NCBI GenBank assembly: GCA_034440615.1
Contig: JAOTOM010004277.1
Coordinates: 186,001-250,000, forward strand
Source: Ashinkailepas kermadecensis
Lineage: Eukaryota > Arthropoda > Thecostraca > Neolepadidae
Length of the DNA: 64,000 nt
Reading direction: 5' to 3'
The notes under the pieces are model-generated. The model was given only the letters and a program-made list of their open reading frames with translations. It made no database searches and had not been told where the DNA came from. Position 1 is the first letter of the stretch. Each line of letters opens with the position of its first letter. The translations under genes were made by a program, and so were the position numbers. Shown here in pieces: positions 18,701-51,104 of the stretch.

Positions 18701-21700
18701 ACGGCACGCTGCGGTCCGGTACACCGTATGACGTCATAATTTCGTCACGTCACCCCGCGTCACGTTGCGCCATGGCACGCTGCGGTCCGGTACACCGTAT
18801 GACGTCATAATTTCGTCACGTCACCTCGCGTCACGTTGCGCCATGGCACGCTGCGGTCCGGTACACCGTATGACGTCATAATTTCGTCACGTCACCTCGC
18901 GTCACGTTGCGCCACGGCACGCTGCGGTCCGGTACACCGTATGACGTCATAATTTCGTCACGTCACCTCGCGTCACGTTGCGCCACGCCGTGGTGTGAGG
19001 GTAGACACTTGCCCTCTCATCAGGTCGCAGATGATCAGTCAGGAGGACTACAACTTCATCGTTGCCTACGGCAATGTGCTGAGCGACTCCAAGAAGCGTA
19101 ACGCGCTGGTGCAGGAACATAGTCATCAGTGTGCCAAGACGTTCTTCAACCTGCTCGGACACATCTGCAAGGACCAGACGGTCCAATACCTGCTGGTGCT
19201 TATTGAGGATATGCTCTCGGTATGTCACACAACGGCAAAAGTGAGGGGAAACGTGGACTGTGTACCTTACGACTGGAGGAGGCAGAGCGGGGTGGGGATG
19301 TACTTCATGCCTGGAAAACAGGGGCTGGACGGGAACTGTGTAGCTGACGGTTGGCGAATGGCGATGGACTGAGTTCTTGTGCGTGGTAGGCACTGCTATC
19401 AATGCACCGAAACAGTAGCATTACGCCGTAACGTATTTGTTGATATGCAATTCACCTTCCATATTATTTTACCTCTACGCATATTTTATGGGATAAAACG
19501 TGATTAATGGACTATAGAGAAAGTTGGTATGTATAAAAAAAAAGGTGAACAAAACACTGGTCATTGGCAGTATAGATCTCATGCTCATGTCATGCTCGAT
19601 GACCAGTTATCGGTGTTCTGAGCTCGCCTCTGGTCACCAGGACAAAGAGAACGGCCGGGTGTTTCGCGACTACGCGCGCCGTAAGCGCGAGAGTGTGTGG
19701 GCACCGTTCCTGAACCTGCTGAACCGTCCGGACGACATCAGCGTCAACCTGACCGCCTGGATCGTGGCGCGACTCGCCTGCGACGGCGGCGAGCTGATGG
19801 CCGGCTCTGACCTGCAGCTCTACTGCACCTGGCTCAAGGACCAGCTACAGAAAACGGTCAGTCGCCGATAAACCTGCAGCTCTGCCGCACCTGGCTCAAA
19901 GACCAGGTCCAGAAAACGGTCAGTCGCCGATAAACCTGCAGCTCTGCCGCACCTGGCTCAAAGACCAGGTCCAGAAAACGGTCAGTCGCCGATAAACCTG
20001 CAGCTCTTTCGCACCTCTAGCTCAAACGTCAGCTCTGGAAGACGGCCAGTCACGGGGAAACCTGCACCTGGCTCAGTCAAGGAACAGCTCCGGAAAAGGT
20101 CAGTCACTGGGAAACTTGCAGCTCTACCGCACCCGGCTCAAAAACCGACCATATCCGGAAATTGGTCAGTCACGGATACACCTGCAGCTCTATCGCACCT
20201 GGCTCAGGGACCAGCTCCAGAAAACGGTCATTCGCGAGTAAACCTGCAGCTCTACCGCACCTGGCTCCTCGATGTCCTGTTATTGCAATTACTTTATTGA
20301 TGCGTCTGTATTATATTGCTGCATCGACTCGTCTATGCTAAAGCGACCTAACTGACGTCTCCGTATTGTGACTTCCTGCGACTCGTCCATGCTGTCACTC
20401 GGCCAGCCACTCCTGCACGCTGCACACTGGCCACTCTGTGGCACACTGCAAGCACCCGTATTCGTCCGAGTGGCAGGAGTACAATGATTCGGGTGCGCGG
20501 CCTGTCCAGATGCGCGCCTTCAGCAGTGACGCCTACGTACCCTTCTTCGAAACAGCTGGTGAAGTCGCGTGTGGTGGACTTCACCTTGGTTAAGTCGCGT
20601 GTGAAGCTTAAGGAAGATCTTGAAGATTGTCGACTGTGCTTACGTCAATGACCTGATGAGCAATGCCACTGTCAATATTGAGATATATTGATATTTGATG
20701 CATGAATACATTAGATAAGCTCAACAGCAACAAGATGTTCCAATTACTGCACTGACTGTTCTGCAGCGTCACTACCGTGCTGACTGCTCTGTGACGTCAC
20801 TACCGCACTGTCTGTTCTGTGTCACTTTCATATTGATTGCTCTGTGGCGTCACTACCGTACTGTCTGTCTGTGGTGTCACTACCGTACTGACTGCTCCGT
20901 ATTGTGCTCCTCGGCCTGGTCACAGGACAACCAGTACCTGCCGACGGTGGTTCGCTGTCTGCAGCTGCTGCTGCGTATCGACGAGTACCGGTACGCGTTC
21001 TTGCACGTGGACGGTGTGGCGACCATGCTGGCCGTCCTCTCGTCCGGCGTCAACTTTCAATCGCAGTATCAGCTGGTGTTCTGCCTCTGGGTGCTCACCT
21101 TCAACGAGGAGATCGCCGAGGAAATGAGCAAGTGAGGGCGTGTGGCAGCAGAAGACTTACCGTTTCTGTAGTAGTGACAGGCCTGTGAACGCTTGGGACA
21201 GTTTATGTGATAGCTGTGCTGTGCTGTCACCACAATATCTGAATAGCATCTGCCCTCAGAGGGTGGACACTACTCAACCATAGACACACACTTAGCATGT
21301 CTTGCAGCTAGCATCGACTTGTGCGTAGACCAAGCCTGCGCTGTTGAGCGGTCTGGCGTCGGTACAAATGGCTTGTGTGATGTGCTCCTTCTGTCCGAAG
21401 AGACGACCACGGGTGGGATGTGCTCGATGTACGGATGTGAAGGTGTCCGGTGGCTGTATCACCGATGGTGGTGTGGCTCTGCCTGCAGGTACAGTCTTAT
21501 CCCGATGCTGTCTGACATTCTGATCGACACGGAGAAGGAGAAGGTGGTGCGCATGTGCATCGCTACATTCCGGGTGCGTGCTTCTCCACTCACCACTGGC
21601 ATTGCGCTGTGTCGAGTTCTCACGTTTCCACTGCGTATCTCCCGACTGGCCTGTTGCCAACTACCCGACGCTCATCTGTGACGTGTCGACAAACCACCGT

Positions 21701-24700
21701 CATGTGTCGAGTTTAGTTTTCGGCTTAGCTGTTGTGTGCCGGCGTGTAGCTTTGCAGCAATGCCAAACATTGAGGCACCTTGAAGGGAGTTCATTTCCAG
21801 TTCCATTCATGTATTATATTTTCGGCGCGGCATCCATTAGCTATGGTTATGGTTGCCTTCATCCATCCACACCCCGGCGGGACTCGATTGACACCGCCGG
21901 CGTCTCTGACTCTTGTCTACATCCACGACCACCACTTTCGTGCGAGGTGAACGGAGGTGAAGACAGTGATAATGGGATGGCTGTGTATGGCTCATTGCGT
22001 CTGTCCCACAATTTTTAGTCATGTCATTCCTCTCTCAATCATGTTCCGCCTGTCTCGGTCCTGTCCCGCTGGTCTTGGTCCTGGTCCGCCGACCTCGGTC
22101 TTGACACGCCCGTCTCGGTGCTGACTTGCCCGTCTCGGTCTTGACTGGCCCGTCCCGGTCCTGGTTCGTCCGTCTCGGTCATGACTCTCCAGTCCCGGTC
22201 ATGACTCCCGTCCCGGTCCTGACTCTCCAGTCCCGGTCATGACTCTCCAGTCCCGGTCATGACTCTCCAGTCTCGGTCATGACTCCCGTCCCGGTCCTGA
22301 CTCGCCCGTATCTGTCCTGACTCGCCCGTATCGGTCCTGACTCTCCAGTCCCGATCATGACTCCCGTCCCGGTCCTGACTCGCCCGTATCGGTCCTGACT
22401 CTCCAGTCCCGGTCATGACTCCCGTCCCGGTCCTGACTCTCCAGTCCCGGTCATGACTCTCCAGTCCCGGTCATGACTCCCGTCCCGGTCCTGACTCGCC
22501 CGTATCGGTCCTGACTCCAGTCCCGGTCATGACTCCCGTCCCGGTCCTGACTCTCCCGTCCCGGTCCTGACTAGCCCGTCTCGGTCCTGACTCTCCAGTC
22601 CCGGCCATGACTCCCGTCCCGGTCCTGGCTCTCCCGTCCCGGTCATGACTCCCGTCCCGGTCCTGACTCGCCCGTATCGGTCCTGACTCTCCAGTCCCGG
22701 TCATGACTCCCGTATCGGTCCTGACTCTCTCGTCCCGGTCCTGACTAGCCCGTCCCGGTCCTGACTAGCCCGTCCCGGTCCTGACTAGCCCGTCCCGGTC
22801 ATGACTCCCGTCCCGGTCCTGACTCGCCCGTCTCGGTCATGACTCTCCCATCTCGGTCCTTACCCACTCGTCTCGATCCTTCCCCACCCGTCTCAGTTAT
22901 TCCCCACCCGTCTGAGTCATTTCCCGCTCTGCCTGGCTCAGCCAACTCTGACCAGGTGCACCGTTGCTGGCAGAACCTTGTGGACAAGGTGAAGAACAAA
23001 GTGCTGGCACGAGAGAACGCCATCCAGATGGTGCAGTGCAAGGTCTTACGGCATTTAGAGTTGATCAGCCAGCGATACAACGCTGACGAGGACCTGCGAG
23101 CCGACGCCGAGTACCTCACGGACAAGCTCACCCTCAGCGTGCACGATCTCAAGTGTGTTGCTCACCGCGCAATGTCTAACTTCGACCAGTATCTAACTAG
23201 AGGACCATCACTATATTATTTGTAAACATAGCTATGGGCGCAAATGACTACGTCGAGTGTCATTGTTCGCCATGACGGTGGGTTCGGCCTGAAATGTGAA
23301 GTATTATAGACGACGTCGCTAGCGAAATGTTCGGCTTGTCCTCTGTATACATGTGAGTATATCTCCGTGGTGCAAACGTTGTGTGCTAGTGAAGAAGCAC
23401 GGTGTTCTATGAATCCCATCTTTACATTGTAGATGATCTACTCTGATACTGTGTTTACAGTAATGTTGAATCCATATTGTTTTGTTGACTGTTGTATGCA
23501 GGAAGGTCCCATGCCCTATTGCAGCTCAGTTTTGAGTATGAGAAAACTCAGGAGTGATGCGTCGATTCACATATCTCCCAGCAATGCCCGTCACTGACCT
23601 AGTCTATATCTGTGTGGTGTCTTCACCTCGTTTTATCCAGGACACCAGTTGTATGTCCGTCCGCGGGTCACTTAGCCGATAATTTGGCGTAGCTGGACTG
23701 ACCCGCTGCTGGTTAGTCGCCTAATGTTATTAACCGCGGCCGCTGGTTGCAGCTCCCTGGACGAGTACAGCACGGAGGTCAAGTCGGGCCGACTGGAGTG
23801 GTCACTGGTCCATAAGTCCGATAAGTTCTGGCGCGAGAACGCCGAGCATCTCAACGACAACAACTACCAGCTGCTCAAGATGCTGGTGGGTGCGCCGCCT
23901 GGTAGTCAGCGCTATTCTGGCCCTTGACTGTGTTAGTTAAGCAGCACTGTTGTACTATGCAGGTCGGCCTGTCGCTGCTCTATTGGTTATCTACAGCACG
24001 TCTGGCTAAACGGCGAGAATGAACTGTGCTGGTTAGAATATTCCGCACCACTGTCGGCAGCTCTTATTATCATTTGTCACGTGCATGACTGGTTGCATTC
24101 TGTCAAGACAAGATGAAGGATTAAGTTCCAGTAATTACAACGGTCATGCCATATCGCACCCCGGTATGGAGTGCTGGATGCCTTTAGCGGCTGTTGATCA
24201 TCGGTCTCTGACGCGGCTGTTGCTGCTCCACAGATTCACCTTATTCAGACCTCCAAGGACCCCCTCGTTGTCAGTGTTGCCTGCCACGACATCGGGGAAT
24301 ACGTTCGACACTACCCCAGGGGAAAACGGTACGTACATCCGAGACAGTTCCTCAAGGGAAAACGGTACGTGCGTCTGGGACAGTGTCCCAGAGGAAAACG
24401 GTGCGTGCGACTGAGACAGTGCCTCAGGTGAAAACGGTATGTCCAAGCAGTGTCCTGAAATTCTGAAGTTTGAGTGGAGACCTTCACTTAATGACAATTG
24501 TTTGATGTCACTTCCGTTCATTTTGACATTAGGTTCCACTTATGCTATTTTAGTCCAGTTTTTATGAGTGAGCCTTGGGTGGGTCTTTAAAGGGGTTCGT
24601 GACCTATGGCAGCAGTACTGTCCACTGGTAAAGGCAGCATGTACACTATTGGCATCATCCCCGTCATGAAACAATCAACAAGGGTCATAGAAAGTCACTC

Positions 24701-27700
24701 ATGAATAGGCATTACCCATACATGTTTGCACTTTTTAGCATCAGTTGGCCTTTTTACATCACCCCTCTCCCCCTCCACTACAAAATGTTAATTTCAGGAC
24801 CCTGTGTCCGAAACACTACTCGCCTCGCTCCAAGGGAAAAGGGTAAAGCATGTCCGAAATACCGCCCAAAGGGAAATGGCAGTACGTTGGGCCCTACTCG
24901 AAGGGAAACGATGTGTACCTCCCATTTTGCATCAGAATAAAACGGTACGTTCGGAGTAGTGGTGCATGGCGAGGAGGGCAGCGCCTCAGGAGTGGAGTAC
25001 GGTAGGCAACAGACTGCTGCGTCCTCCTTTAGTCTTCGCATGCTAATATTTATAAGAGAAGGATCGTGGCTTTTATAGCTAATGTGATTAATGCTGGTTC
25101 TAGAAGATCGAACTTCAGACCAGGTAGATCACGGTGGATTGAGCGAGAGCCACGGGGGCCATGACATCCTTTGAAGTTTCCAGAACTTTGCGCTTGGTGA
25201 GGGAAGCTGAGGTTCCCATGAAAATCAGGTTAATTTAGTCTGCGTTCGCCAAAATCGAACGGGTAGATCGGCCAGTGAACGAGGTGAGGTGCTTTTATCT
25301 GGTGGTGGAATGCACTGCTGGCTCGCAATGAACCTCTACCTTTACGGACTATTATCATCACAACATGATCTTTTTCACCACCCGTTTGGCTGTGCTTTAT
25401 CGATATCGTGCTGCTGTCAATTTGCTATTATCTGTCCCACCACTCCAAAACAGACACTACTGTTTTGGAGTACTAGGTCGATGCTACGGACAGATAAATC
25501 GTGTCAGTGGTACGGACTGCTGACATAGATAGCGGACCAGTGGTACGGACCGACATGAGTCGTGGGTCTCTGATAATGGCCGACATGCCGACATATCACG
25601 GTGGATGCGTGATAATGACTAACGTGGGTCGTGGGCATTTGCCGGTTTTCGTGGGTATTTGCCGGTATGGGTTGTGGAGTGATGATAATGGCTGACGCGG
25701 GTAGTAAACGGGTTTGATGATGCGGCACCCGGTTGCAGCGTGCTGGAGAGTCTGGGCGGCAAGCAGCGGGTGATGGAGAAGATGCTATCTGAGGACCCCA
25801 ACGTGCGGTGGTGTGCCCTGCTGGCAGTACAGAAGATCATGGTGCACAACTGGTGAGAGAGCAGCGGTGGTCCAAGAGTATGCAGTTGGGCAATAGTCGG
25901 AACAGGCCGTTACGACACTGAGAGTTTGTGGTAGAGGGAGGAGTCTTGATGTCGGACACAGAACGAAATTAATTGCATGGTTGGCGCTGTGTTCTCGAGG
26001 TCTTCTCCAGATCGGTGTTAGCTGACGAAACTAGTTGTTGAAGGGGTGTAAAGCTTGGGAAGAGACAAATAGACGTTAAAAGGCATATTCTGTCAGCATA
26101 ATATCCATGTCAAAATTAAGCCTCTTGATAGTTCAATAGCAGTTGGTGGCCAATGCCATCAAATTCGTCAACAAAACCGTAAGGGATGAGCAAAAGTGAT
26201 CATACCACGAGTAGTGCGTTTGAATGGCATCGGTTAGGATATGCCAAATTGGTGTCACTGGATATCTGGAGGTGCGGATGCGTATAGGGTGCCGAGGTTT
26301 ACTCCCACCATCGACAGTCAATGGTCGACGGCGGAGCTGAACCGTCCAGGCAGCCATATCTATTAGGTCAGCCATCGCAGTGAAATATAATTTTCTACCC
26401 TCAGTGCGAAAGGGGAGGGGGCATTTTGATCCCGTACCAATTTTTGTTCTGAACAGGATAGAGTGCGGTAAACGGCATGATGTAGCTCCATCCTGGAGCC
26501 TTCAGAGTTACTCTAAATATTTTGTGTACCTTTTTTGGTTGACCCTCCAGGCATGTTAAGCAGTTTAATGTCGGAGACAGTCGCTTTCCCATATTCGCCG
26601 TAGCTTGCGATTTCGTGCTTCAATATTGATGATGTGCAAACTGAAGACTTAATCTAACACTATATATGATGTGTCCAAAAGTCAAGGTCACCGGTCTCGT
26701 CAAGGTCAAACACCTGAAAATATGTGATGAACTGTTCAGGATGACAATTTTCGAAACAGATGACGCTTGGGAAAATTCCATGAGTAGCAATAAAACAAAA
26801 CGAAATGTTTTTAACTATGTTTGAGAGTCACCCCCCCCCCCCCTCCATCACTACAAAGACAGTTTGGCATTTAACACCGAAAAAGTCTAGGAAAAATACA
26901 AATGTTCATGTCGAATTCAGGGACACTAGTTGCATCAGAAATGAAAGCGCCAATGAAATTGGCGCGCAAAATTACCCCGGTTTAGCTACTTCTTTTTCGC
27001 AATAGCCGTATTTTAAGTCTCAGAGTGTCTGCATTCATATACGCTCGCTGAATTTCAGGTCATATGTCGGTGAACTGACCAGATATTGATATGAAGCTTC
27101 GCATACGTTTAGAGGATGTAATTTACCCCACATACATTCCGTTTTTACTCAAAAACACTTTAGCCACACAGTTATACACGAAATAATGTTATTTTACTTG
27201 AAATCTTCATTTCGCCTTGTGAGCTGACCCTAGGTCACATCTTGTATTTTTGCATTTTTCTTCTATTTGTTTATACACCGACATTTCACTTTGTGATTAA
27301 TCAAAGACTGGTCGAGGCCCATTAAAGCCCAAACAACACCAAACCACATGTCACTTTTGGCAGTATATTGTATGGTTTGTTTATGAGCAATTATTTCAAT
27401 GTTCGCATAAAAACCGTACTGAGACGAAATCGTGGTCTGACTTTGACCTACCCTCGCTCCGATATTTTAAAGGTTGAAACTCAATTGTTCGCACAACGTG
27501 CGATCATCAATTGTCGTAAGGTATGCCAAACTTCAAAACAACATATTGAACGGTTCGAAGTTGGCTCAGAAAAACCGGAATAGAGGTCGAATTGACACCA
27601 CCCCGCGCACTGCGACCGTTAGCTGTTTTGTGCCGCTTGTAGAGGTTACAGGCCGCCGACCACTAATCCAGCAACGAAACGGTCCATGTGCCTCATATGT

Positions 27701-29280: not shown

Positions 29281-29290
29281 GACACACATA

Positions 29291-29684: not shown

Positions 29685-29826
<142 letters not shown>

Positions 29827-33246: not shown

Positions 33247-33346
33247 TGGACAGATTTGGTGGGCAACTGGTTCAGTGTCCAAAGTGCAACCAAGAAGGGC
33301 CCTTGTGGCTCATAGTGGCACTGATCTTTTATGTCTTTATGTCTTT
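31996..33346 (+). mobile_element. LINE copy B (same family as A), 5'-truncated
   Basis: Starts inside the RT domain (homology from AATTATCAAGG) and ends in a 3' UTR different from copy A: AAGGGCCCTTGTGGCTCATA then TTTATGTCTTTATGTCTTTA. It is inserted in MITE copy 2. Confidence 0.92.
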
Positions 33347-33719
33347 ACATACTGCCAAGGTTAGTGATTTGTAAAGAGGTGTACAGTTGGGAACAGTGAC
33401 ATCACAGGTGTCAGGGAAGTGACGTCACAGGAGTCTGGTGTCGGTAAAGATTACCACCTAACCTAGACTAAGATAATGTAGCATAATATACAAAATGTAT
33501 CATAGCATGATATAGTCTAACCTAACCTAACCTAACTGGAAAAACAGAATCCTCAGAAGCCAATTTTTTTGCCATGACGTCATGAAATATATGCGACATT
33601 GTATAGGCAACTCTTTACAAATCACTAACCTTGGCAGTATGTGTTGGCTGAAAGGTAAAGATTACCCCTTGGCAGTATGTGTCAGCCAAAAGTAAAGACT
33701 ACCGCCTAGGTTAGGTAAG

Positions 33720-33890: not shown

Positions 33891-33997
33891 GGTGATGCAT
33901 AGCAACCATATCTCTACAGTTGGCATGCTCTACATTGCATATTCCAGCAGATGCCATCTGGGCAAAATGGCATTGTTGATTAAGGCGTTTGGTACTA

Positions 33998-37855: not shown

Positions 37856-37859
37856 GACG

Positions 37860-38421: not shown

Positions 38422-39546
38422 ATGTCGGAGGTCCGCCCCATGGGTGATAACGGAAAATTATCCGGGCCACCGTCTCCAGCACAGGATGCACTGGAAGTTG
38501 AGTCAGCACTTCGTGATGAAATGTCAGAGGTGACAAAGAACCCTGCCACTCCGAATCCTGTTGCGACCAAGAAGCTGACAGAGGCATATGGTCCAGTGGC
38601 GGCATCACTCTCACAGGAACCGACTGTAGCAGTAGCTGCCCACACTGCTGCTGCTGAAATGGTATCACAGCCGCTGCATGACTCCACGGCGCCCCCGGCT
38701 GCTGAGGTCTCTCCACAGCCAGAGGCGGTGCCTCCAGTGGCAGCGGTTTCCTCGGAGTCAGAGGGAGCACCTCTGGCGGCTGAGCTCTCCCCAGACCCAG
38801 AGGCGGCACGTCCAGCGGTAAAGGTTTCCCCGGAGCCAGAGGCAGCATCTCCGGTGGCAAATATATCTTCAGGACCAGAGGCGGTACCTTCGGCGGCAGA
38901 GGTTTCTCCAAAGCCAGAGGCAGCACCTCTAGCAGCGAAGGTTTCCCCGAAGCTAGAGGCGACACCTCCAGCGGCGGAGGTTTCCCCGAAGCCAGAGGCG
39001 GCACCTCCAGCAGCAAAGGTTTCCCCGAAGCCAGAGGCAGCACCTCTAGCAGCGAAGGTTTCCCCGAAGCTAGAGGCGAGACCTCCAGCAGCGGAGGTTT
39101 CCCCGAAGCCAGAGGCGGCACCTCCAGCAGCAAAGGTTTCCCCGAAGCCAGAGGCGGCACCTCCAGCAGCAGAAGTTTCCCCGAAGCCAGAGGCGGCACC
39201 TCCAGCGACAGATATTTCCCCGAAGGCAGAGGCAGCACCTCCAGCGGAAGGGGTTTCCCCGGACCTGACGGCAGAGAAGGTTTCCCCGGTACCGACGCCG
39301 GCTCCGAATGGTGGCGGCGACGACTCTGGCTGTGAGGTGGAGCCGGAGCCGTCGGCCATGTCGGAGCGAGCCGGGCCGGACATGGCCGACGTGGAGCAGC
39401 TGGCGCGCTCGGTGGTGAGCGACACGCTACTGCGGGCCAAGCAGGACGCCAAGCTGCAGGCGGAGCTGGAGCACCGCGCCAGCGACCCGGACGCCGATGC
39501 TGACGGCTGGCTCGACATCGTCGGCAACGGCCAACTGAAGAAAAAG
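38422..39546 (+). CDS. FKBP8: FKBP8 exon 1: repeat-rich N-terminus (residues 1-375)
   Basis: ATG at 38422 (MSEVRPMGDNGK...). A possible 3' splice site (TTGCTTTACAG, ends 38384) just upstream suggests a non-coding first exon elsewhere. From ~38697 to ~39290 a 39-bp unit repeats about 14-15 times, encoding variants of VSPKPEAAPPAAE. It ends with ADGWLDIVGNGQLKKK, which is the FKBP8 pre-FKBP motif. The donor AAG|GTCCGC at 39547 is weak, but the intron is needed because the frame stops soon after (TAA at 39571). Confidence 0.88.
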
Positions 39547-42500
39547 GTCCGCGGCGGCGCACACTTGTGCTAAAGGCAGAGCCTGGTTTTATTTTCGTGG
39601 TTGTCCGATTGCATTCTGTTCTATGGGAGTAAAAATTGCAAGCTGCTAGATGATATTTGACTGAGAAAGTATGTTAATTAAAATACTTGACATGCTGGCC
39701 ATGGCGCACTGGCGGTCGTTGTAATGTATGACGTCCCCGCAGGTGGAAAATGCCGACACGGGCTAACGCGCGACACTTGATGACGTCACTGGTGTGCCCG
39801 CAGGTGATCACGGGCGGTCGTTGTATCCCCTCCAGATAGCAAAGATCAGCACGGGCGGCCGCGCGACACTTGATGATGTCACTGGTGTGCCTGCAGGTGA
39901 TCGCGAGCGGCACGGGCGGTCGTTACAATTGAAGATGCCGCTGGAGTCCCACGTGTGGGTCAGCACGGGCGGTCACGCGACACTCGATGATGTCACCGAT
40001 GTGCCTGCAGGTGATCACCGCCGGCACGGGCGACCGGGAAAGTCGGCCGAAGCGCAGCGAGGTGGTGACGGTGCGGCTGAGCGGGCGGCTGGAGGACGGC
40101 ACGCCGGTGCAGTGCGGCCCTGACCGGCTGACGTTCGGCCTGGGCGACGGCGAGGTGGTGACCGGTCTGGACATGGCCGTCGGCCTCATGCAGCCCGGCG
40201 AGAAGGCCGACGTCTATATGGACTCGAGGTGAGCGTCCGCGGGCTGTTGGTTCTGGCATGTGCAGTGCATCGAACTGAGCACGGGCCCGCAGTAGACGGT
40301 GTAGGCCATGTAGCGAAGTAAAGCCCTATTGGTACAAAGTAAGCCTCAGCTCGCTACGCGGTCTAGGCGGGGATATACTTCAAAGGGTCTGCATGGCAAG
40401 TTTCCTCGCTGCGCTAACGGTGTCCCTTTGTAGAAGGAAGAACTAGTGCTGTACCATGTGATGCACATTGAATGCAGTGACATCGGTTCATCAGTTGCTC
40501 TGCACGTACCTGGATGAGCGGCCGCGACCGCATTGGATACTCTGGCTGGATTCCTCTGTGTCTGCGTGTTCGCTGTATCCCATGCTTGGGCGGCGAGCCT
40601 GTTCACTGCTGGCGTATCGTAGTTCTGTAGTCTGTGCGATTATTCTGAGGTGCGCGGTATCGTTCACCTGCTCTCGCCATGCCACTAGTTGCGATGCCAT
40701 GTCAGAACCTGAGTTGTTCTCGTGCGGTGTTATGCGGTTTGAGAGTTGAAAGTTAAAAGGGCTCTCCAGAACACTGCTAGATAATTTTGAACCCATTATG
40801 TCACGCTTATTGGACAAGTGCACTACCAACTGTGCTCCCCTTTTGCAACTAGCACCTCAAAGTTGTTTTCTTTCGATGTGGTACAGCAAGGCTTCCTAAA
40901 AGCCTGAGCCATAGTGTGGATGCATGCAAATACTCTGTAGAGATGTAAGTAAATCGAACACCAGCTATGATGCAGGCTAACTGAGACGTCGGTCTCCACC
41001 ACGTGCTGGATCGACCCGGTGGAGACGGCCGATGCCACTGACGTCGCCATGCTTATGTGCACGACAGGTTTGCATATGGAGAAAAGGGCCTGGAGGACAG
41101 CATCGCGCCGAATGCCAGCATCATCTTCACGGTCAGCCTGGAGCAGGTGCAGCCGGCCCCCAAATACGAGGAGATGTCGGCTCAGGAGCGGCTCAAGATC
41201 GGGTCAGTGCCGCCCATCGACTGCCGTCCAGCGCCTGCTGTTGGTGTGCGTGCCGTCTCAGCCTCATACTGCCATAAACCATGTCAGCGACACATGTAGC
41301 TGAGTGTGCTCATTCGTCACAAATACTCGACACTCCAATTTGCAGTGATGCAATTGTTTTCTGCAGTGTACCACGACTGTGAGGTTACAATCAATGTGTA
41401 TGTCAGGTTCCGAGTTTGTTTGTACCGTCCCATCCATGTTCACATGGGTGCGAACTTTCATCGTGCCAGGTGTCAGTGAAGTTGAGTGGAGAAGCTGAGG
41501 TACTTTTACAAACCACTTCTTATAATGCTGTTTTTGTATTACATTTACCTACATCTCACGTGCACGTTGGTTTTGACAGTGTTACTATGCCGACTCTTTG
41601 ACGCACCTCCGTTTTGCAACTGAGTTGCCACCACACTTAGTTCAACGCCAATGGCGACATATCATGTACGAATTAATCGAATAGATGTTGGCCTCATGCA
41701 ATCTTCACCAAGACCGCTGATATTGCCGCTGATGAAATCGAGTTGGATTCAATTTAGTTCTGTTCCAAGAATTGAGCTGTAGATGGAGCTTTGTTATTGT
41801 TCCAGGAGTGAGAAAAGAGACCGAGGCAATTGGTGGTTCAAGCGAGATGACTACAACCACGCCATCCAGTGTTACCGGCGCGCTCTCGACTTCTTCGACA
41901 ACGAGAGCGACGAGTTCACGGTGAGATCCCCAAGAACAGAGCTGATCCCCTTATACAGCTGATTTAAAGCTCCCGAGTTCGCAGCCCGGCCGCTTGGTGC
42001 CATGCTTATTTGCGTTATGCAAGCCCGGTTTTTAAATGTACGAAACTTCACTAAGTGCTAACTAACACTACGGGCGTACATACTGACCTGATGCACATAT
42101 TTACGCGAGGTCTGCGGGCTTCTGGGGACTGAACTCCTGCCATAGGACAAGTTGAATCTTCCGAGGAGTTACACATCGAAAGATGAACGCAAGGGAACGC
42201 AGAAAGTTTGCGACACTTTGTGACTCGTGTTTATGTATCATGAGGATGGTCTTGGGACATGTTTCCAAGCAAAATGCAACTTACCCTTGAAGTTCAGAAC
42301 CACCGCGTTTCCTGGAGTTGCATGGGTACGGTGACTGCCATGCTGCACCAGGGTATCGACCTCGATTTATGTCGAGCTTGCCAGCCGCTGTGCGGTGTCC
42401 TGTGAGGCCTACTGCCTGTGGCTGATGGTGGCATTGACTACACCCTGGCGCTGTCGGTTGGTCTGCTCCACCTCGTCTTCATCCGTCCTCAACAACGGCC

Positions 42501-45500
42501 TCGTCCCCATCCAATGGATGGTCTAGTGTGGACTTTGGTTCACCGTCTACACTCGGTATGCCGATATAATCGCGCCATCAGTTTCCATCTCTATGTTTCC
42601 TAATCCCTGGAATTACAGTGTTTCAACAAAGAGTAACACGTCTTTTGTGATTTTCAGCGGCACTCCGTGCGCTTCTTCCTTGATTCCTTATCGTAGCGTT
42701 TCGAAGGAGTTGCTTCCGATCGTGTATCGCCCTTAACTGACATACACATCATGGCCGGCTGCACCCTGCGGGCCAATTCCTACGCAGATAACTCGCCATC
42801 AGCGTACATTGTAACAGTCGGTTACCTAGTTTTTCAAACACCCGCCATTCGTTTCAACAGGCCAGCTTCAGCTCATTGAAATGCTTATGACTACAACTCC
42901 TGGAATTCACCTGTGAACGTGTTAGAAATGGTTCAGCTATTTGTTCGTCGCTTGCAATGACCCATTTTATTCAGGAACTTTGCATAATCCTTGATGAAGG
43001 TGGAGCTGCGAAGCATTTCATTCATCAACTGATGTATTCATAAATCCACATCTTCGACAGTTAAGCATCAAAAGTTAACATTTCGCCCCTTTGAACCTTG
43101 CAGAATCTGGCCTCGAATGTGTGGTACCTTGCGACTAAGAAATATCGAACATGCCGACATAATTCCGTGGTATTCTTATCCACTCCGATAATCTGGTGCT
43201 GGCTTCTCACACAGTAAGGAATACCCAGAAAACTAAGCACTGGGTTTGTTGCAGGCTCATCAGCAGGCAGTTATTGAGGTTTACACCCATGATCGCCTGT
43301 AAGCCGAGGCTTTACGTCTGCTTCGACGGAATACATAGCCCCTTATCTTGCTTGGTTAACCGTCTGATTGGAACTGAATCATTTGATGACGTTTTGCGGA
43401 TTTCCTGTAACATACGACTATCCCCCGTCCCTATTTGCCCACACACTGAGTAAAGGTAATGACGCCGCTGCAGAGCTGGATGATGCCTCAGTATCTGGCT
43501 GGACAGTTGCAGGCACCGCTCCGAAAGCTGACCACATCAGCATTGCAGCACGTCAACACAGCCGAGGCAATGACCGGTACTGACCTGGCGGTGCCTACAC
43601 TGGCCTGGCGGTGGCCAACACTGACCCGAGGGCTGACCACATCAGCATTGCAGCACGTCAACACGGCCGAGGCAATGACCGGTACTGACCTGGCGGTGCC
43701 TACACTGGCCTGGCGGTGGCCAACACTGACCTGAGGGCTGACCACATCAGCATTGCAGCACGTCAACACAGCCGAGGCAATGACCGGTACTGACCTGGCG
43801 GTGCCTACACTGGCCTGGCGGTGGCCAACACTGACCTGAGGGCTGACCACATCAGCATTGCAGCACGTCAACACAGCCGAGGCAATGACCGGTACTGACC
43901 TGGCGGTGCCTACACTGGCCTGGCGGTGGCCAACACTGACCTGAGGGTCGACAGTGACCTGATGGGTGTGTACGTTGACCTGACGGTGGTCGATACCATT
44001 CCAACACTTACCTGATACTGTCGACCGTGTGTGCCGCCAGGGCCTGCCCGACGACGTGCACGTGCTGTTCGAGGAGCGGCTCAAGGTGCACAACAACCTG
44101 GCGGCGGCACAGATGAAGCTGGAGGCGCACGACGCGGCGCTGCGCAGTCTGCAGCTGGTGCTCAACTGCCAGCCCGACAACGTCAAGGCGCTCTACAGGA
44201 AGGGCAAGGTGCTGGCCGCGCAGGGTCAGCTGCCGGAGGCGGCCGAGGCGCTGCGGCTGGCGCTGGAGCACAGTCCCGACAACCGGACCGTGCAGGCGGA
44301 GCTGGCTAGACTGACGGTCAGTGCCCCCGCCTCAGTCCCGACAGCCGGACCGTGCAGGCGGAGCCGGCTAGATTGACGGTCAGTGCTCCTTCCTCAGTCC
44401 CATGCATGCGGATCCGGCTAAACTGATGGTCAGTGTCCCTGCCTCAATCCCGACAAACGGACCGTGCATGCCGAACTGATCAAGCTGACTATCAGTGCCG
44501 GCCTTCCCCGATCACGATACATGTAATCTACTGACATGCGGCTTCATTGTTGTGTACATTGATATTGCTTGTTTTATTTGGTGACTTAATATCCCACATG
44601 TTCTGTGTTTTTTCTTCAATTGGAGTTGATTAAACGATGGTGTTGTGTTGTGTGACGATTGATTGTAAAAATGTTGTACTGTACGATTATATTGTGTTGT
44701 TTTATTGTTTATCGGTTTATCATTTACGTTTTAAATTAGACGATTGGCCTGGCTATCGCTGCGTGTACCGCTCGAGGGTATATCTGACCACCACCGGAGG
44801 GCATATCGGACCACCACCGGAGGGTATATCTGAGCACCACCGGAGGGTATATCGGACCACCACCAGAGGGCATATCGGACACCACCGGAGGGCATATCTG
44901 ACCACCACCGGAGGTATATCTGACCACCACAGGAGGGTATATCTGACCACCACCGGAGGGTATATCTGATCACCATCGGAGGGTATATCTGATCACCACC
45001 AGAGGGTATATCTGACCACCACCGGAGGGTATATCTGACCACCACAGGAGGGTATATCTGACCACCACCGGAGGGTATATCTGATCACCACCGGAGGGTA
45101 TATCTGATCACCACCGGTGGGTATATCTGATCACCACCGGAGGCGATGTCTGACCACCACCGGAGGATATATCTGACCACCACCGTATGGAATATCGGAC
45201 GACCACCGGAGGGTATATCGAACACCATGTGATGGGTTTTAATCCAACATTTCAGTGTGGTTGTATCGTATGGTTCTTGAGGTTGGAGTAATCAAGCCGT
45301 CCATCGTCTGCTCCGTTTGCTTTGAAGTACAAGATAGTGGTGGTTAACACGAGTAGGTTTTCGTGACGTGGCGTGGTTACTCGGGGCGTGTTTTGCGACG
45401 CTCCTGCCGTGGCTGTGTTTGGATCAATTGCCAGGCATTCTAGCCGCTTCCGTTGCCGCTCTGGGCCCCACAGCACGCGCCCGCTGATGTGACCTCGCTC

Positions 45501-48500
45501 TCTCAGGCACGCCAGCGGAAGGTGGCGGAGGAGCAGAAGAGCCTATACCGGAAGATGTTGGGACTGCCGGCGGTCGAGCCGAAGCCAGCCGCGCCCAGCA
45601 AGGTAAGCCTCCGCTTGTCCCTCCCCAGCCTGCACGCTAGAGCATAACGTGGGTTGACATTGCTTAATCCAGTCCGATTTGGATCCATGGAGGTCAATCG
45701 GTATCCAATCCAAGTCCATTAAAACCAGAGCCACGGCAGTCCAAGCCATTCTGTTTGGAAACATGCCATCTGTTGCAGCGAGCAGCGCAGCAATATAGCT
45801 TCGATATCAACCCTAGATCCAATCCAGATCTGAAAGCTTTGTCAAAATGATGTGCAATCCGATCCTAGTCCAATCCGATGCGGCATCCATACGGATAGCT
45901 CGATATATGCTGTTTTCTACCGTCCTGCCATCGTCTCGGTTGATGAAGGGTTGATATCCCTCTGTATCGGCTACTCCCTCCCCTACCCCACCCCGATGCA
46001 TGTCTGTCCTGTTCAGCGGTGATGTCCAGGTGCTCGCCATGAACGTACCTGGTACGGACGGCATGCCGTCGCTACCGTGTGTGCGCCTTGACGCCCCGAT
46101 AATCAATCTGCGAGTCACCTAGCGGGCAACGATCCGGCCGACTCGGCGACCAGGGCGAACCGCTGATTGTGCCGCAGATAAGATCACACTCGGTGTGCGG
46201 TGCGGATTATGTCCGTCGACCCTTGGAACCGCGAACGGGTTTGGCTGAGGCTACGGCTTTGCGACATATCCTGCCTGTTAAAAAGCTTGCAAGGGGTCAT
46301 TGGTGGGTTCGGTGGTGCCAATAGTCGCTCAGTTTGGCTCCATTCGAAATGTCCCGGAGTGCATTTGAGGTAAAATAGATCATGGGTCATCACTGGCTTA
46401 ATTTGACGGTGGGGTGGGGGGAGTCCGCTGGTCTGGCGGCATGGTCTCGGGACATTTACAACTGATGTCAATCATCTAGATATGTTTGCTGCAGCGAAAC
46501 AGACGCGGGCACTTTTGGCAAGGCGTTATCCCTTGTTCCGGTTATTAAGTTATGAATCACTGCCAATCAACGGATCAATGACTCATTCAATGCATCCAAC
46601 AATCACGCCAAGTAATGAAACAGTAAGTTGCAAGAAGTTATATGAAGTTAAGAATCACCAAGTACGTCAAACGGCGACGTGTCTCCGCACGCTGGTTTCT
46701 GATGGCTTCGACAAAGCCTCTGGAAGTGACAATAACACGTTAAATATGCCTGACATCAGATTAATGACATTGACCCATCCGAAAATTTCGATATGTGAAA
46801 AAAAATAGCTGCTTTAGCATGCAGGTTTCAGAAAATATGTTGGGCCCCAAAGAAAGTTGTAAGCGAAAGCCTTTTTTGGGGGCTGCCATGCAGCCTGACC
46901 TACTCAGTGATCTGACATGACCTGCGGTAAAAATCTGTACAGCATATGTCAATTGATGGACGAAAATGTACGCAAAGTTTTGAATGCACTGCACCGTCTT
47001 GTTGGCTCGAAGGCAGTGCCGTATGTCTTCGTACCTTTGCTACTATGTTGGCTGCTATGGTTGCTGTCAGTACCACGTGTCCATGTAGCAACGATGTAAT
47101 TTGTAGTAGCAATAGTGTTGCACGTAGTATCACTATATTAAGTGCATCCCAAGGCAGACAGACGCACAGTTCCCTGACATAAGAAATGCAAAGTAGCTTC
47201 GATACATTCCCCTGGGGCTGTCACATGGTGACCGGTGCTAACACGACCTCAGTCTCATTGCCATATGACACTGCCTTGTCCTGCCCTGACCGGAACGTGG
47301 GGGCAACGATCCCATGCGACTCATTATGAACAAATACAATGGTGGCGCGTACCTGACAGCCCAGCGTCGAGCTGGAATGTGACGGCAGCTGTGGCTCGAT
47401 TAGAAATGCATCCGTGTCGACGGTGATGGCTGCGCTATGGATAATTTCTAAATTCGGCTCTGCAACAAGCGCCAGGCTCAGACACCGGCCACCACCTGCC
47501 CAGGCAGTCGGCCCCCTCGTCTCTGGTGACAGTCTGGTCAATTACCTGGGGGGTTCTAGCGCTGATGGCCGAGTGCGGGCCTGCTCTTCGCCCGCTCTGC
47601 CCGCTCTCGAGTGGCGAGGGTCAGCGTTGCTGCATGAACACAACGCGCAACACCATTGCCACTATGGGCATCCAGAGAAGCCATCCTAGCATGTGGCGTT
47701 TTGGCACGTTTCGCACAGCCATAGCCAAAGGATGGCAATCAGACCTGACATATGACATCTTTTTCTTGACGACACATGGCTGGGAAGTTATCTGGCGATC
47801 TGAAGCACCCGTTCAGTTTGCCTGTAAAACCATTTCCTTTACTTCTGGCACTTACCACAAAATCAAGGTATTTGCACCTACCTTTTAGCATACGTTTGTT
47901 GCGGTTGATATTCAGGTCGTCGGTAGCTCAGTGGCTCAGCTGATCGCCTGGCCTGCCAGAGGTACGGTGCCTGCCCTTCCCCCTAGGGTGAGAGGCAGGC
48001 GACGCCATACAGCCGCCGCTGCTGAGTGCGTCATAAAGCCACAATCAACAAAACCAACCAATGGTTGATAGCTGGATCCTTTGACTGAGGGCAGATGTGA
48101 TGTAAAGCGAGTTTTGGTGCAATCAGTATTTCTCTGTCGTGTTTCGATCCGCCGCATTCCCGCCAGAGATGATGTGGGATTGCGAAAGTTTCTTTCTGGG
48201 CTTTGTGGAGCGTTGACCTGGTTGTTGGGTATATTTGTAAAGCATCTCGCCCACGCACATTTTGCCACCTTCTCCAGAGCATGTGGGGGAGGGGTTATAC
48301 AATAAATAACCGATACCCACTTGACATGCCTAACACAATATTATTCAGTGCATTGGTATGTTACCATGGTGTGATATGTTGCATTTCGGCCTATAGGTCG
48401 AGGGTCAGATGACCTGAAAGGATGTGTTGACCTCGTTTTTGGAATCTTCGGAAATAATGCTAAGAAACACTATTTTCTTACCCAGGGGTGGAAGTGAGCA

Positions 48501-51104
48501 CCAAGTTCAGCTTCAGCCTCCAAGTTCGCCTAATAATGACAAATAGACCTTAAAAGGTCACCTGAGGTCAATTTGGCCCAATCACCTCGAATGAACACGG
48601 CAAGGTCAATGACCTATGTAAGCGCGATGGTTATTGGTTTTTACGACACGTTGACCGTTGAGTCATATAGCGTCGCCAATCTCTCACGCCGATTGGTCGC
48701 GGGCGAAGAGTAGCGACAGGTGAGACTCGAACCCACAATCGTTCGATTATGAGACGAGCATCTTACCTATGTAAGCACGTTAACTAAGTTGTTCATCACC
48801 CTAACACATCCAGCATTGACAATTTGGGAGCAATAAGTGAGATTAATTGCCGATAATTCACGATCACGACGAAAAACAGCCGATATGCTCCCTGCTATGA
48901 CGTCACAATCAGGGTTGGGAAAATATAGGCCGTTTCGGGTTTTTGGCATGATCCTCATTATCCTCACATTATCCTTCCCAGAAAATTATCCTTTAATTTT
49001 TATAATTTGGAGGTTGAATGGTGCTGTTTGACAATGAACTGCTTTGTGATAAAGTGCTGAAGATCCACTGGAAAGTGCAAGCTCAGATTCTGACGTCACA
49101 GGCTGGAAGAAAAATATCCTCTCGGTGTACGACTTCCCCAAATTCTCCTCTCCACACTCAGCATTACAAACCATAAATCCAATCCTGATCACAGCTCAGT
49201 GACGTGTTCAACACGTGTTCAATTTTATATTCTAAAATTTGTATGCCGATATCAGCGAAATATACGCCATAAGTTCCATGAAGTGGCCACGCGCTAACGC
49301 GTGCCGTGGTCACGAGCAACCTTAGAGGGGGGGGGGGGAATCAACCTTGTGCGGGAAAGGATTAAGCTAGATCTGTCCATTACTGGAAGGGATTTGGTGG
49401 TATGAAAGCGATTAATTGTTTTATGGTGTTTTCGCAGCGACCCTGATGAATGAAAATGATTCTATGCTGGTTACATCACAGTTGACTTCATACCAGAACT
49501 TTTCTGCACGTTTTGGAGTTCGCAGCGACCTGGGCGGCGTAGAATCCTTGTGTCGTCACATAGCATCTAGGCCGGACGCATGGAATCCTTTTCCCGTACT
49601 TGTCGAAATTAGACACACATGGCGAAATATTTTTCAATGTGTACTTCGCTAGTTTGCATGGGAAGCAAACATATCTATCGATGACATTGCTGGGCACATG
49701 TTAATCGTGAATGCCTTTGATTGTGGTGAGCTACCTGTGAATAAAAGAAAATCGGACATGCCTAGGGAGAGCGAAGTAAATACCGCAGCAAATGAACTAT
49801 CCAAGTGTTGTACTGTGCGTGAGTCAACATTCCAGCACATTCCAGCATTCCAGCTCTAAAACAGAATGCCCACCAACCGCTGCACCAGTGCAGTGGCCGC
49901 CAGCACCGCGACGAACTCTCGTCGAATGGTTGGTGGCTATTTGGGCTTGGGGGCGCATCAACTGCGTGGGTCATGCAGCGCCCATGGTCTCGTCGAATGT
50001 GCTATACTTTTTCATCTGACCGGGCAGGTTGCACAATTCGGCGGATTCGTTCCTGAATGCGGTATCTCAAACTGGGGTTGGGCGTTAGGATGGAAAACCA
50101 GGGATGGAGTTAGGCATTAAAGGAATTAAATTGTTAATTGAATATACGTGGGAGTATCATAGTCTATTTTATCTGGGTAATTATTATCTAATTGTGCAAT
50201 TGTCTAATTGTGTAATTGTCTTGTCCGCGAAGTTATTGTCAACAAGTTGCCGTGCTTATAGACATAAAGATTAACCTGCTGCGAACACACCGACAACAGA
50301 TTCTGCATGACGTCACCCAGAATAGAACAGTCTGTGTCCGTTGCGAAAACGCCCTTAATGTTGGAATGCTTTAGTTGCATATGTTTCTTTTAAGATCGTC
50401 ATACAAAATACCATTATCAGATACACGAAAGCATTTGCCCACCAACGATAGCCCGTTTTTTTTTTATTGCAAGTGAGCCGAACATATTTCCGGAGCATTC
50501 AAGAGAACGGCGGTAGAAAATGTGTGTGCCTTGCTTCAGATGAATGCTGCATATGCTTGCATGCCTAGGATACATTGACGCGTTGGCGCCAACCTATCAT
50601 GGAGCTAACTCCCGAGGCTTCCGGCATTTCCTAGCGCTTTACACTAGCAACATGAGCGTTCTGTTGTATTTTAGGGGATATTTTCCTCTCCAAGGCTCGC
50701 TTGGCTGTCCAAACTAATTGGTTTGCTTGGCCACAATGCTACTAAATGCTGTTTTCGCATTTGGCGGGCCTATTATGAACAGTACTGAAGCCTAAGAATG
50801 TAAATAAGCTTAAAGATATGTACCTACCAACACAATATGCGAACAATTTTCTCGTTGCGACTGTTTTCCCTCTCTGTCTTGGCGCATCTTCCAGCTGATA
50901 TATGTTGAAGCGATGCGTGGTTTGTCGGGGTGCGAGTGTCCTGACGTGATCGGCTGTCGGCAGTCGGTGACGACCAGGCTGCTGGTGCTCGGCGAGTGTC
51001 CTGACGTGATCGGTTGTCGGCAGTCGGTGACGACGAGGCTGCTGGTGCTCGGCGTGGCGTGCGGCCTGGTGGCCATTGCGCTCAGCCGGCTCAAGGTGTT
51101 CTAA
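38422..51104 (+). CDS. FKBP8: FKBP8-type peptidyl-prolyl isomerase/TPR protein, tail-anchored (7 exons)
   Basis: Joined exons: 38422-39546, 40011-40228, 41068-41202, 41806-41920, 44041-44316, 45507-45602, 51024-51104. Phases agree, giving 2046 nt and 681 residues. Order: a repetitive Pro/Glu/Ala N-terminus (to ~350), WLDIVGNGQLKKK (~363-375), an FKBP domain (~376-485, with LTFGLGDGEVVTGLDMAV and FAYGEKG), TPRs (~490-625, with NNLAAAQMKL and KALYRKGKVLAAQG), a linker with SLYRKMLG, and a C-terminal hydrophobic anchor (RLLVLGVACGLVAIAL). Family knowledge: FKBP38/FKBP8 sits on the outer mitochondrial or ER membrane, binds HSP90 through its TPRs and handles BCL2-family and mitophagy partners. It is much longer than the ~410-residue human protein, mainly because of the repeats. 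Acceptors of exons 2 and 7 and the donor of exon 5 are tandemly duplicated. Splicing around exon 7 is ambiguous. Confidence 0.92.
38697..39290 (+). repeat. 39-bp coding minisatellite in FKBP8 exon 1
   Basis: About 14-15 units of 39 bp (AAGGTTTCCCCGAAGCCAGA, then GGCGGCACCTCCAGCAG) encode 13-residue repeats. As 39 is a multiple of 3, all six frames stay open, which explains two ~370-406-codon antisense frames here. Confidence 0.95.
39731..40035 (+). repeat. Tandem copies of FKBP8 exon 2 acceptor
   Basis: GATG(A)TCAC...GTGCC.GCAG|GTG followed by an exon-start-like sequence occurs four times. AG-adjacent starts are at 39743, 39804, 39897 and 40011 (real). Copies 39804 and 39897 share GTGATC and CACGGGCGGTCG, but hit TAG or TGA within 12 codons. 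Confidence 0.9.
40011..40228 (+). CDS. FKBP8: FKBP8 exon 2: first half of FKBP domain (residues 376-448)
   Basis: Acceptor GTGCCTGCAG ends at 40010; donor AG|GTGAGC at 40229. It encodes SEVVTVRLSGRLEDGTPVQ and LTFGLGDGEVVTGLDMAVGL then PGEKADVYMDSR. The acceptor region is the last of four degenerate copies; this one is chosen because only it reads on into the FKBP domain. Confidence 0.93.
40932..41067. other. End of FKBP8 intron 2
   Basis: Nothing beyond the exon 3 acceptor. Confidence 0.3.
41068..41202 (+). CDS. FKBP8: FKBP8 exon 3: end of FKBP domain (residues 448-493)
   Basis: Acceptor CACGACAG; donor GG|GTCAGT at 41203. It encodes FAYGEKGLEDSIAPNASIIF then TVSLEQVQ, followed by EEMSAQERLKIG, which starts the TPR region. 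Confidence 0.93.
41806..41920 (+). CDS. FKBP8: FKBP8 exon 4: first TPR (residues 493-531)
   Basis: Acceptor TTGTTCCAG; donor ACG|GTGAGA at 41921. It encodes SEKRDRGNWWFKRDDYNHAI then QCYRRALDFF, a TPR helix pair (W/Y..A...Y..AL pattern). Confidence 0.92.
41921..43480. other. FKBP8 intron 4, nothing recognised in its first 1.5 kb
   Basis: No transposon protein, SINE or array recognised. Confidence 0.4.
43527..43950 (+). repeat. 105-bp tandem repeat, 4 copies, before FKBP8 exon 5
   Basis: GCTGACCACATCAGCATTGC starts at 43527, 43632, 43737 and 43842, exactly 105 bp apart and almost identical. The unit holds its own GGCGGTG..CTACACTGGCCT duplication. A unit length divisible by 3 keeps a false antisense frame open. 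Confidence 0.97.
44041..44316 (+). CDS. FKBP8: FKBP8 exon 5: TPR 2-3 (residues 532-623)
   Basis: Acceptor GTGCCGCCAG; donor ACG|GTCAGT at 44317. It encodes VHNNLAAAQMKLEAHDAAL, LNCQPDNVKALYRKGKVLAA and LPEAAEALRLALEHSPDN. Asn and Lys/Arg positions typical of an HSP90-binding carboxylate clamp are present (NN; KALYRKGK). Three tandem degenerate copies of the exon end plus donor follow. Confidence 0.95.
44270..44500 (+). repeat. 62-bp tandem copies of FKBP8 exon 5 donor
   Basis: CAGTCCCGACAACCGGACCG through CTGACG|GTCAGTG recurs with edges at 44316 (real), 44378, 44428 (with a 12-bp deletion) and 44490. TGA appears in frame before the second donor. Confidence 0.93.
44771..45225 (+). repeat. 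23-bp tandem array, ~19 copies (FKBP8 intron 5)
   Basis: Units of GAGGGTATATCTGACCACCA plus CCG with small changes (GAGGGCATATCGG, GATCACCACCG). Confidence 0.95.
45507..45602 (+). CDS. FKBP8: FKBP8 exon 6: linker (residues 624-655)
   Basis: Acceptor TCTCTCAG; donor AAG|GTAAGC at 45603. It encodes RQRKVAEEQKSLYRKMLGLP then a Pro/Ala-rich stretch. SLYRKMLG matches the family's conserved linker before the anchor. Confidence 0.92.
45603..47902. other. FKBP8 intron 6, first part, nothing recognised
   Basis: No coding or repeat family recognised. Confidence 0.4.
47911..48062 (+). mobile_element. tRNA-headed SINE family S2 with TSD
   Basis: tRNA-like CGTCGGTAGCTCAGTGGC (A box TAGCTCAGTGG), a degenerate B-box area, then a body ending GCGTCATAAAGCCACAATCA and ACAAAACCAACC. 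GGTTGATA flanks both sides (47903-47910, 48063-48070). The tail resembles that of S1. Confidence 0.75.
48420..48611. other. AGGTCA-rich stretch
   Basis: Several AGGTCA/TGACCT half-sites within ~190 bp (AAAAGGTCACCTGAGGTCAA). It may be a MITE piece; similar motifs occur near 26690, 37670 and 61780. Confidence 0.35.
48625..48764 (-). mobile_element. SINE family S1, tRNA-Met-like head, with TSD
   Basis: Minus-strand sense: GTAAGATGCTCGTCTCATAATCG-like anticodon arm (CAT), GGGTTCGAGTCTCACC (B box), the S1 body and TCGTAAAAACCAATAACC. Flanking ACCTATGTAAGC at 48612-48623 and 48765-48776. Confidence 0.9.
48975..49170 (+). repeat. Dispersed repeat R5, copy 2
   Basis: See 36640-36850. The shared frame here reads FDNELLCDKVLKIHWKVQAQ. 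Confidence 0.75.
49171..49916. other. FKBP8 intron 6 DNA, nothing recognised
   Basis: Has a G-run at ~49327; otherwise no feature. Confidence 0.4.
49929..49987 (-). mobile_element. Very short (59 bp) retroposon with perfect 12-bp TSD
   Basis: TCTCGTCGAATG at 49917-49928 and 49988-49999. Minus-strand sense: GGGCGCTGCATGACCCACGC, AGTTGATGCGCCCCCAAGCC, CAAATAGCCACCAAC. This is the best-preserved target duplication of the short family. Confidence 0.9.
50932..51051 (+). repeat. 60-bp tandem duplication over FKBP8 exon 7 acceptor
   Basis: Two copies (50932-50991, 50992-51051) differ at only two bases. Each holds CTGACGTGATCGG.TGTCGG, CAG|TCGGTGACGAC.AGGCTG and CTGGTGCTCG. The acceptors are at 50963 and 51023, in the same frame. 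Confidence 0.96.
51024..51104 (+). CDS. FKBP8: FKBP8 exon 7: C-terminal membrane anchor (residues 656-681)
   Basis: It encodes SVTTRLLVLGVACGLVAIAL then SRLKVF and TAA (51102). About 17-19 hydrophobic residues near the end fit a tail anchor. Acceptor CGGCAG ends at 51023. An equally good acceptor lies exactly 60 bp upstream (exon would start at 50964) and is in frame, adding 20 residues. Which is used cannot be decided here. Both acceptors have poor pyrimidine tracts. Confidence 0.82.
   Translation, partial: SVTTRLLVLGVACGLVAIALSRLKVF

Follow-up and report, generated by a model that had tools for sequence, protein, structure and literature searches.

Introduction

Minisatellites that include a splice site are already known, from the human gene 6-16/IFI6 (G1P3). 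According to Turri et al. (1995), as cited in PMC4526556, the repeat lies there at the exon end and offers several donors, downstream units being used. In human segmental duplications, De Grassi and Ciccarelli (2009; PMC2812944) describe variable internal tandem repeats at exon-intron boundaries, with 162 alignments containing boundary repeats and 27 intron modifications after inspection. Among the literature matches listed, at the level of titles and abstract openings, none dealt with barnacle splice-site arrays or with a genome-wide rate of tandem-copied splice sites, and no absence is claimed from this.

We analysed a stretch of 64,000 nucleotides of barnacle nuclear DNA (Ashinkailepas kermadecensis), called here the window, together with other loci of the same genome. 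Two properties of the IFI6 type were found: the repeat unit contains the host splice site at 5 of 32 sites in the window and at 8 of 84 sites elsewhere, and the copies retain the splice dinucleotide in 76 cases out of 78.

Results

The two host genes

The window, part of a 907.7-Mb assembly with 4689 contigs, holds two gene models, ATP6V1H and FKBP8, both on the + strand.

645..28000, + strand: ATP6V1H gene, 11 coding exons, open 483-aa model, GT-AG introns
645-714, 17898-17970, 19024-19219, 19641-19856, 20926-21131, 21489-21573, + strand: ATP6V1H exons 1-6
22974-23152, 23753-23885, 24234-24328, 25739-25852, 27916-28000, + strand: ATP6V1H exons 7-11
38422..51104, + strand: FKBP8 gene, 7 coding exons, open 681-aa model, GT-AG introns
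38422-39546, 40011-40228, 41068-41202, 41806-41920, 44041-44316, 45507-45602, 51024-51104, + strand: FKBP8 exons 1-7
38717..39261, + strand: in-frame coding array in FKBP8 exon 1, 39-bp unit, 14 copies, 13-residue P/A/E-rich repeat

The ATP6V1H draft model is 84% identical to the V-ATPase subunit H of Pollicipes pollicipes, the best among the matches listed, and aligns with PDB 6xbw_P at E 4e-145. Without its N-terminal extension, FKBP8 shares 77% identity with FKBP8 of Pollicipes pollicipes, again the best among the matches listed. Both draft models can be aligned with barnacle proteins, and among the matches listed no protein was identical. The coding array of FKBP8 exon 1, the sole large coding array in the window, sits in a low-complexity, P/A/E-rich N-terminal stretch; a similar low-complexity stretch is present within the N-terminal extension of Amphibalanus FKBP8 (P0123).

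By eye, broken and putative LINE-like reverse transcriptase fragments were noticed by their motif at 4500-9500 and 32000-34600, and sequence resembling tRNA, in both orientations, at 48700-48770 and 54347-54425, where it may form the head of a tRNA-derived SINE. A long stretch at 53900-59300 contains degenerate GGGGCCCC/GATTTT-type repeats (periods of 43 and 209 bp) and a 23-bp array.

Five splice sites of the window have local copies

For each of the 32 splice sites, the surrounding 50 bases were searched for copies within 700 bp on either side. Five sites gave a local copy, with scores of 44 to 90, the best of the other 27 sites scoring 24. They are the donors of ATP6V1H exon 4 (score 85) and exon 9 (44), the acceptors of FKBP8 exon 2 (64) and exon 7 (90), and the donor of FKBP8 exon 5 (71), which are exactly the five exon edges that the original prediction, made from the letters of the window, had named as carrying tandem copies. 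The unit sizes given there were also recovered, 62, 36, 62 and 60 bp, with an irregular spacing (61, 93 and 114 bp) at the FKBP8 exon 2 acceptor.

19810..20267, + strand: array of 62-bp units across the ATP6V1H exon 4 donor (19857), 47 bp of exon and 15 bp of intron per unit, 7.4 copies
24317..24445, + strand: array of 36-bp units across the ATP6V1H exon 9 donor (24329), 12 bp of exon and 24 bp of intron
39730..40040, + strand: FKBP8 exon 2 acceptor, copied irregularly, AG before 39743, 39804 and 39897, exon start at 40011
44271..44499, + strand: array of irregular 62-bp units across the FKBP8 exon 5 donor (44317), which is copied at 44379 and 44429
50932..51054, + strand: tandem duplication of 60 bp across the FKBP8 exon 7 acceptor, which is copied at 50964, exon start at 51024

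The copies of the FKBP8 exon 2 acceptor, being too irregular, went undetected by TRF. In the four arrays that TRF reported in the window, the splice site lies within the repeat unit, which straddles it. The units had been expected to start on exon edges, and this has to be corrected: the four arrays extend 47, 12, 46 and 31 bp into the exon, and because the exonic part varies (47/62, 12/36, 46/62 and 31/60 bp), they begin inside the exon and not on its edge.

In the array of ATP6V1H exon 4, GT is kept in 5 of the 6 extra copies of the junction. When the 641-bp region containing this array was searched against the same genome, skipping common words, no other match was found. The donor of ATP6V1H exon 9 is copied at 24365, 24401 and 24437. 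Degenerate further copies of its motif were seen by eye in 24800-24950, about 500 bp downstream of the main array, with an exact 12-bp match at 24939-24950. In the array of FKBP8 exon 5, a further copy, at 44491, is without GT. Judged by their sequences, the border arrays are separate events.

The two copies of the FKBP8 exon 7 duplication are identical at 58 of 60 bases; the duplication is recent-looking, and its 123 bp amount to two units plus 3 bp, consistent with very short end homology. Alignment with barnacle proteins favours 51024 as the start of this last exon. Upstream, a pyrimidine-rich and better-looking acceptor at 50895 opens a frame that runs through both 60-bp copies into exon 7 (+43 aa), making 50895-51023 a possible alternative start of the exon, absent from the four barnacle proteins aligned. 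This acceptor had prompted us to consider the duplication as wholly exonic, a reading that was rejected, the barnacle alignment favouring 51024 instead. A kinship of the two 62-bp units, those of ATP6V1H exon 4 and FKBP8 exon 5, was likewise considered and rejected, the units being unlike (score 19).

The architecture recurs in other loci

Other loci were obtained by Pfam searches of the same genome with chaperonin (PF00118) and kinesin (PF00225). Thirteen gene stretches were taken from the match lists by exon density, their sequence being unseen at the time of choice. Of 49 junctions, 42 were located, which amounts to 84 splice sites in 12 loci; the other seven had a gap in the profile match, and locus L032 contributed none. 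The position of these sites rests on profile matches and consensus instead of transcripts.

Local copies were present at 8 of the 84 sites, spread over 6 of the 12 loci. The copying of splice sites thus recurs beyond the two genes of the window. In total, 13 of 116 splice sites had copies, 8 donors (of 57 sampled) and 5 acceptors, in what is a small sample (116 splice sites, 57 introns). In all 13 cases the extra copies are on the intron side, downstream of donors and upstream of acceptors. Units at the sampled borders measure approximately 30-80 bp, and the exon overlap of the 11 border arrays detected by TRF ranges from 10 to 50 bp, with no fixed breakpoint.

In one kinesin gene, the exon end and its donor are repeated in seven extra copies. 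This array was found on two contigs (loci L026 and L033, contigs C4390 and C325) with 98.9% identity over 1239 aligned bases, and these are probably two haplotypes. Some repeat variants appear by eye to stand in a different order in the two, and other apparent duplicate contig pairs were seen in the same way among the chaperonin and kinesin exon matches.

Other arrays in the introns

The further intronic arrays that had been announced are also present in the window, and five of them terminate 28-93 bp before an acceptor. No strand is assigned to them.

18646..18987: 71-bp intronic array, end 36 bp before the ATP6V1H exon 3 acceptor
20751..20897: 28-bp intronic array, end 28 bp before the ATP6V1H exon 5 acceptor
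22046..22913: 20-bp array (58/78-bp higher order), end 60 bp before the ATP6V1H exon 7 acceptor
25629..25666: 20-bp two-copy repeat, end 72 bp before the ATP6V1H exon 10 acceptor
43527..43947: 105-bp array, 4 copies, end 93 bp before the FKBP8 exon 5 acceptor
44774..45227: 23-bp array, interior of FKBP8 intron 5

Counting window and other loci, 13 of 27 wholly intronic arrays end at most 105 bp before an acceptor, where uniform placement predicts 3.4; the same test gave 8 of 19 versus 2.7 expected in the other loci. The limit of 105 bp was picked after the distances were seen. After GC matching, the ratio of arrays at 50-150 bp before acceptors was 2.0, a ratio given without P value. In the other loci, the position of intronic arrays within the intron did not differ from uniform (KS P 0.32), and for arrays of at least 100 bp the same test gave KS P 0.02.

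The word CTGAC, which we take to be branch-point-like, was above its shuffled expectation in 5 of the 7 window arrays tested (20751-51054), although tandem repetition by itself inflates such counts. It occurs 20 times in the 20-bp array, 12 times in the 105-bp array, 9 times in the 23-bp array, and 3 and 2 times in two others; it is absent from the 71-bp array and the 20-bp two-copy repeat.

The excess at exon borders depends on the null

Random DNA was represented by 18 stretches (174 kb), which may contain genes. The proportion of positions with a local copy was 17.9% in these stretches, 16.4% in the gene spans of the window and 16.8% in the other loci, and TRF coverage was 16.4% in random stretches versus 20% and 14% in the two window gene spans. 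Judged against coverage, splice sites showed no excess, neither in the window (5 observed versus 5.1 expected, 31 of 32 sites being kept after the donor of ATP6V1H intron 1 was dropped) nor in the other loci (8 versus 11.9 expected, 84 sites), and at acceptor junctions there was a deficit. This null is length-biased and too generous, because a site is counted once while an array counts every copy, and it was retained as a bound only.

Once arrays are collapsed, about 2% of positions lie in a unit. With one count per array under a uniform null, and with ATP6V1H intron 1 left out of the TRF analysis (leaving 30 of the 32 window sites, hence 114 borders), TRF arrays lay over 11 of 114 borders, versus 2.3 expected from random DNA (P 3e-5) and 1.6 from introns (P 9e-7). 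Outside the window the count was 7 of 84, versus 1.7 (P 0.002) and 1.0 (P 8e-5), respectively, and for window and other loci together the excess was about fivefold. Under a lenient placement null, in which an array may fall anywhere in its own intron with at most one unit in the exon, 11 of 37 arrays were at borders versus 4.4 expected (P 0.0013), and 7 of 26 versus 3.4 in the other loci (P 0.03). Up to 25 bp from donors, collapsed arrays took up 11-12% of bases, compared with 0-2% at distances of 50-500 bp.

The uniform nulls ignore GC. Array seeding in random DNA was 0.4-2.5% below 55% GC and 6-8.5% above, and exon borders average 56-58% GC. With GC matching, which we judge the fairest of the three nulls even though GC-rich random DNA may itself hold genes, 11 borders were observed versus 5.5-6.5 expected (P 0.03-0.08), 7 versus 4.2-4.7 in the other loci alone (P 0.13-0.21) and 4 versus 1.4-1.7 in the window alone (P 0.05-0.10). 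Acceptors showed no excess (3 observed versus 2.9-3.4 expected). Donors did, with 8 observed versus 2.6-3.0 expected (P 0.005-0.014), and 5 versus 1.9-2.2 in the other loci alone (P 0.05-0.07).

The assertion that ordinary minisatellites have no reason to lie at exon borders therefore stands against the uniform null and falls against the coverage null, and under GC matching it is kept weakly for donors and lost for acceptors. For most of the association a special border process is unneeded, since GC matching lifts the expectation from 2.3 to 5.5-6.5. These results suggest that the association with borders is mostly an effect of GC, and that a process aimed at borders would act at donors only. 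Of the AGs that follow a branch point, the spliceosome tends to choose the first. Fewer copied acceptors than donors would fit, because an upstream acceptor copy may do more harm.

Predicted effect of the copies

In ATP6V1H exon 4, each of the five GT copies, if used, would lead to a stop at the fifth codon past the normal exon end. Use of the two GT copies of FKBP8 exon 5, or of the three upstream acceptors of exon 2, would likewise give early stops. At ATP6V1H exon 9, copies 1 and 2 would add 12 or 24 aa in frame and copy 3 would lead to a stop, and the copy acceptor of FKBP8 exon 7 would add 20 aa in frame.

The 13 extra donor copies of the window match the consensus at 5-8 of 9 positions (7 in 8 of the 13), and the 16 real donors at 6-8 of 9. 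Over window and other loci, GT or AG is kept in 76 of 78 extra copies, so that the credible splice sites attributed to the copies are indeed there; 68.4 of 78 would be expected from non-CpG dinucleotides in the same arrays. This retention is a hint and not a proof of selection, because copies share ancestry and the search was centred on the junction. The extra copies are potential decoy splice sites, predicted to be approximately as strong as the real ones.

Discussion

We consider it probable that these arrays are GC-rich minisatellites of the ordinary kind, in a barnacle genome that is rich in minisatellites and has GC-rich exon borders. Short tandem duplications would arise mainly in GC-rich DNA, and exon borders here are such DNA. 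When a unit happens to span a splice site, the extra copies would be intronic to the outermost functional copy, that is, the first donor or the last acceptor. Provided that this outermost site is used, the protein is unchanged, and the duplication can therefore survive and expand, while duplications within ordered coding sequence would be purged. Array coverage is indeed 0-0.6% at 50-100 bp inside exons versus 15-18% at 50-400 bp into introns. The architecture of the arrays, their recurrence, their dependence on GC and their placement on the intron side are observed directly. Survival would be due to selection, expansion to slippage or unequal exchange, and we infer from the conservation of the proteins that the outermost copy is the one used. 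Three points speak against the explanation by GC-rich minisatellites: the donor excess, a weak remainder that it leaves over (8 versus 2.6-3.0), the crowding of arrays before acceptors (13 of 27 versus 3.4) and the retention of dinucleotides (76 of 78 versus 68.4).

It seems rather unlikely that a local process duplicates preferentially at exon ends and so creates competing donors, for instance through breaks or template switching linked to transcription or splicing, or through exchange that a highly polymorphic genome restricts to its conserved exon islands. The uniform null (11 of 114 borders versus 1.6-2.3), placement within the own intron (11 of 37 arrays versus 4.4, P 0.0013), the donors after GC matching (8 versus 2.6-3.0) and the concentration of collapsed coverage within 25 bp of donors (11-12%, versus 0-2% at 50-500 bp) would all agree with it, as would the extreme diversity in coding regions reported for another barnacle, Balanus improvisus (PMC8270832). 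Yet acceptors have no excess after GC matching, and in the other loci alone the donors are borderline (P 0.05-0.07) and donors plus acceptors not significant (P 0.13-0.21). Nor is the breakpoint at the splice site, as a border-targeted process had been pictured, the 11 arrays running 10-50 bp into exons. Selection might instead retain arrays of splice signals, redundant donors, acceptors and branch points buffering splicing, a proposal that the kept dinucleotides (76 of 78 versus 68.4 expected), the consensus match of window donor copies (5-8 of 9, real donors 6-8) and the abundance of CTGAC in 5 of 7 window arrays would favour. We find it improbable: in 3 of the 5 window arrays every tested copy would, if used, end the reading frame early, CTGAC is missing from two of the seven arrays, concerted evolution makes copies non-independent, and tandem repetition inflates word counts.

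There is very little chance that introns are being gained here through an exonic AGGT segment duplicated in tandem. Intron gain by duplication of this kind, acting on splice-like sequence, is described as an accepted route (PMC3443670), and one intron of 504 bp, in locus L025, has arrays at both ends, but these two share no sequence (score 16 versus a shuffled mean of 15.6), and the four TRF border arrays of the window each lie at one end of an intron far longer than themselves, 658-5329 bp from the other end. Assembly artefacts are more doubtful still. Highly heterozygous barnacle genomes are reported to be hard to assemble (PMC8270832), and apparent duplicate contigs were seen by eye in the exon lists; however, copies within the window arrays differ, several by 10-20% or more, and an artefact is unlikely because the kinesin donor array occurs on two contigs (98.9% identity).

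A tentative proposal, which we regard as possible though doubtful, is that tandem duplications form or persist preferentially across donors beyond the effect of local GC, in which case an appreciable share of donors genome-wide (8 of 57 in our sample) would have a tail of decoys, roughly equal in strength to the real donor and with their dinucleotides kept. If this donor preference is true, the genome is a natural experiment in splice-site competition. If about 1 in 9 splice sites is tandem-copied, as in our sample (13 of 116), it also offers a ready test of the choice of the spliceosome between near-identical neighbours, and of the cost of new splice sites. Gene annotators should be warned, because copies this close can mislead exon prediction. 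A more general trap lies in the statistics: judging by coverage hides a border excess, a uniform count overstates it, and most of the answer turns on GC matching.

Several described systems resemble these arrays in part. Splice signals are multiplied as in the model of intron gain by tandem genomic duplication described in PMC3443670, but the barnacle introns keep their existing ends and no new intron was seen. In C. elegans, CeRep25B is described as a minisatellite linked to regions of splicing choice near alternative exons (PMC4039745); it is a named repeat found in many genes, whereas the region of the exon 4 array had no second match in the barnacle genome, common words being skipped. The human repeats of PMC2812944 are likewise minisatellites at exon-intron boundaries, where they alter gene structure; they are reported from recent paralogues with RNA support, and the present ones are from barnacle housekeeping genes and known as DNA only. 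The likeness to 6-16/IFI6 is in an array at the exon end that offers several donors. In the human gene, the copies are reported to be used in mRNA, while the barnacle copies are known from sequence alone; on the other hand, the barnacle arrays have units of 36-62 bp in the window, occur in several genes, and involve acceptors as well as donors.
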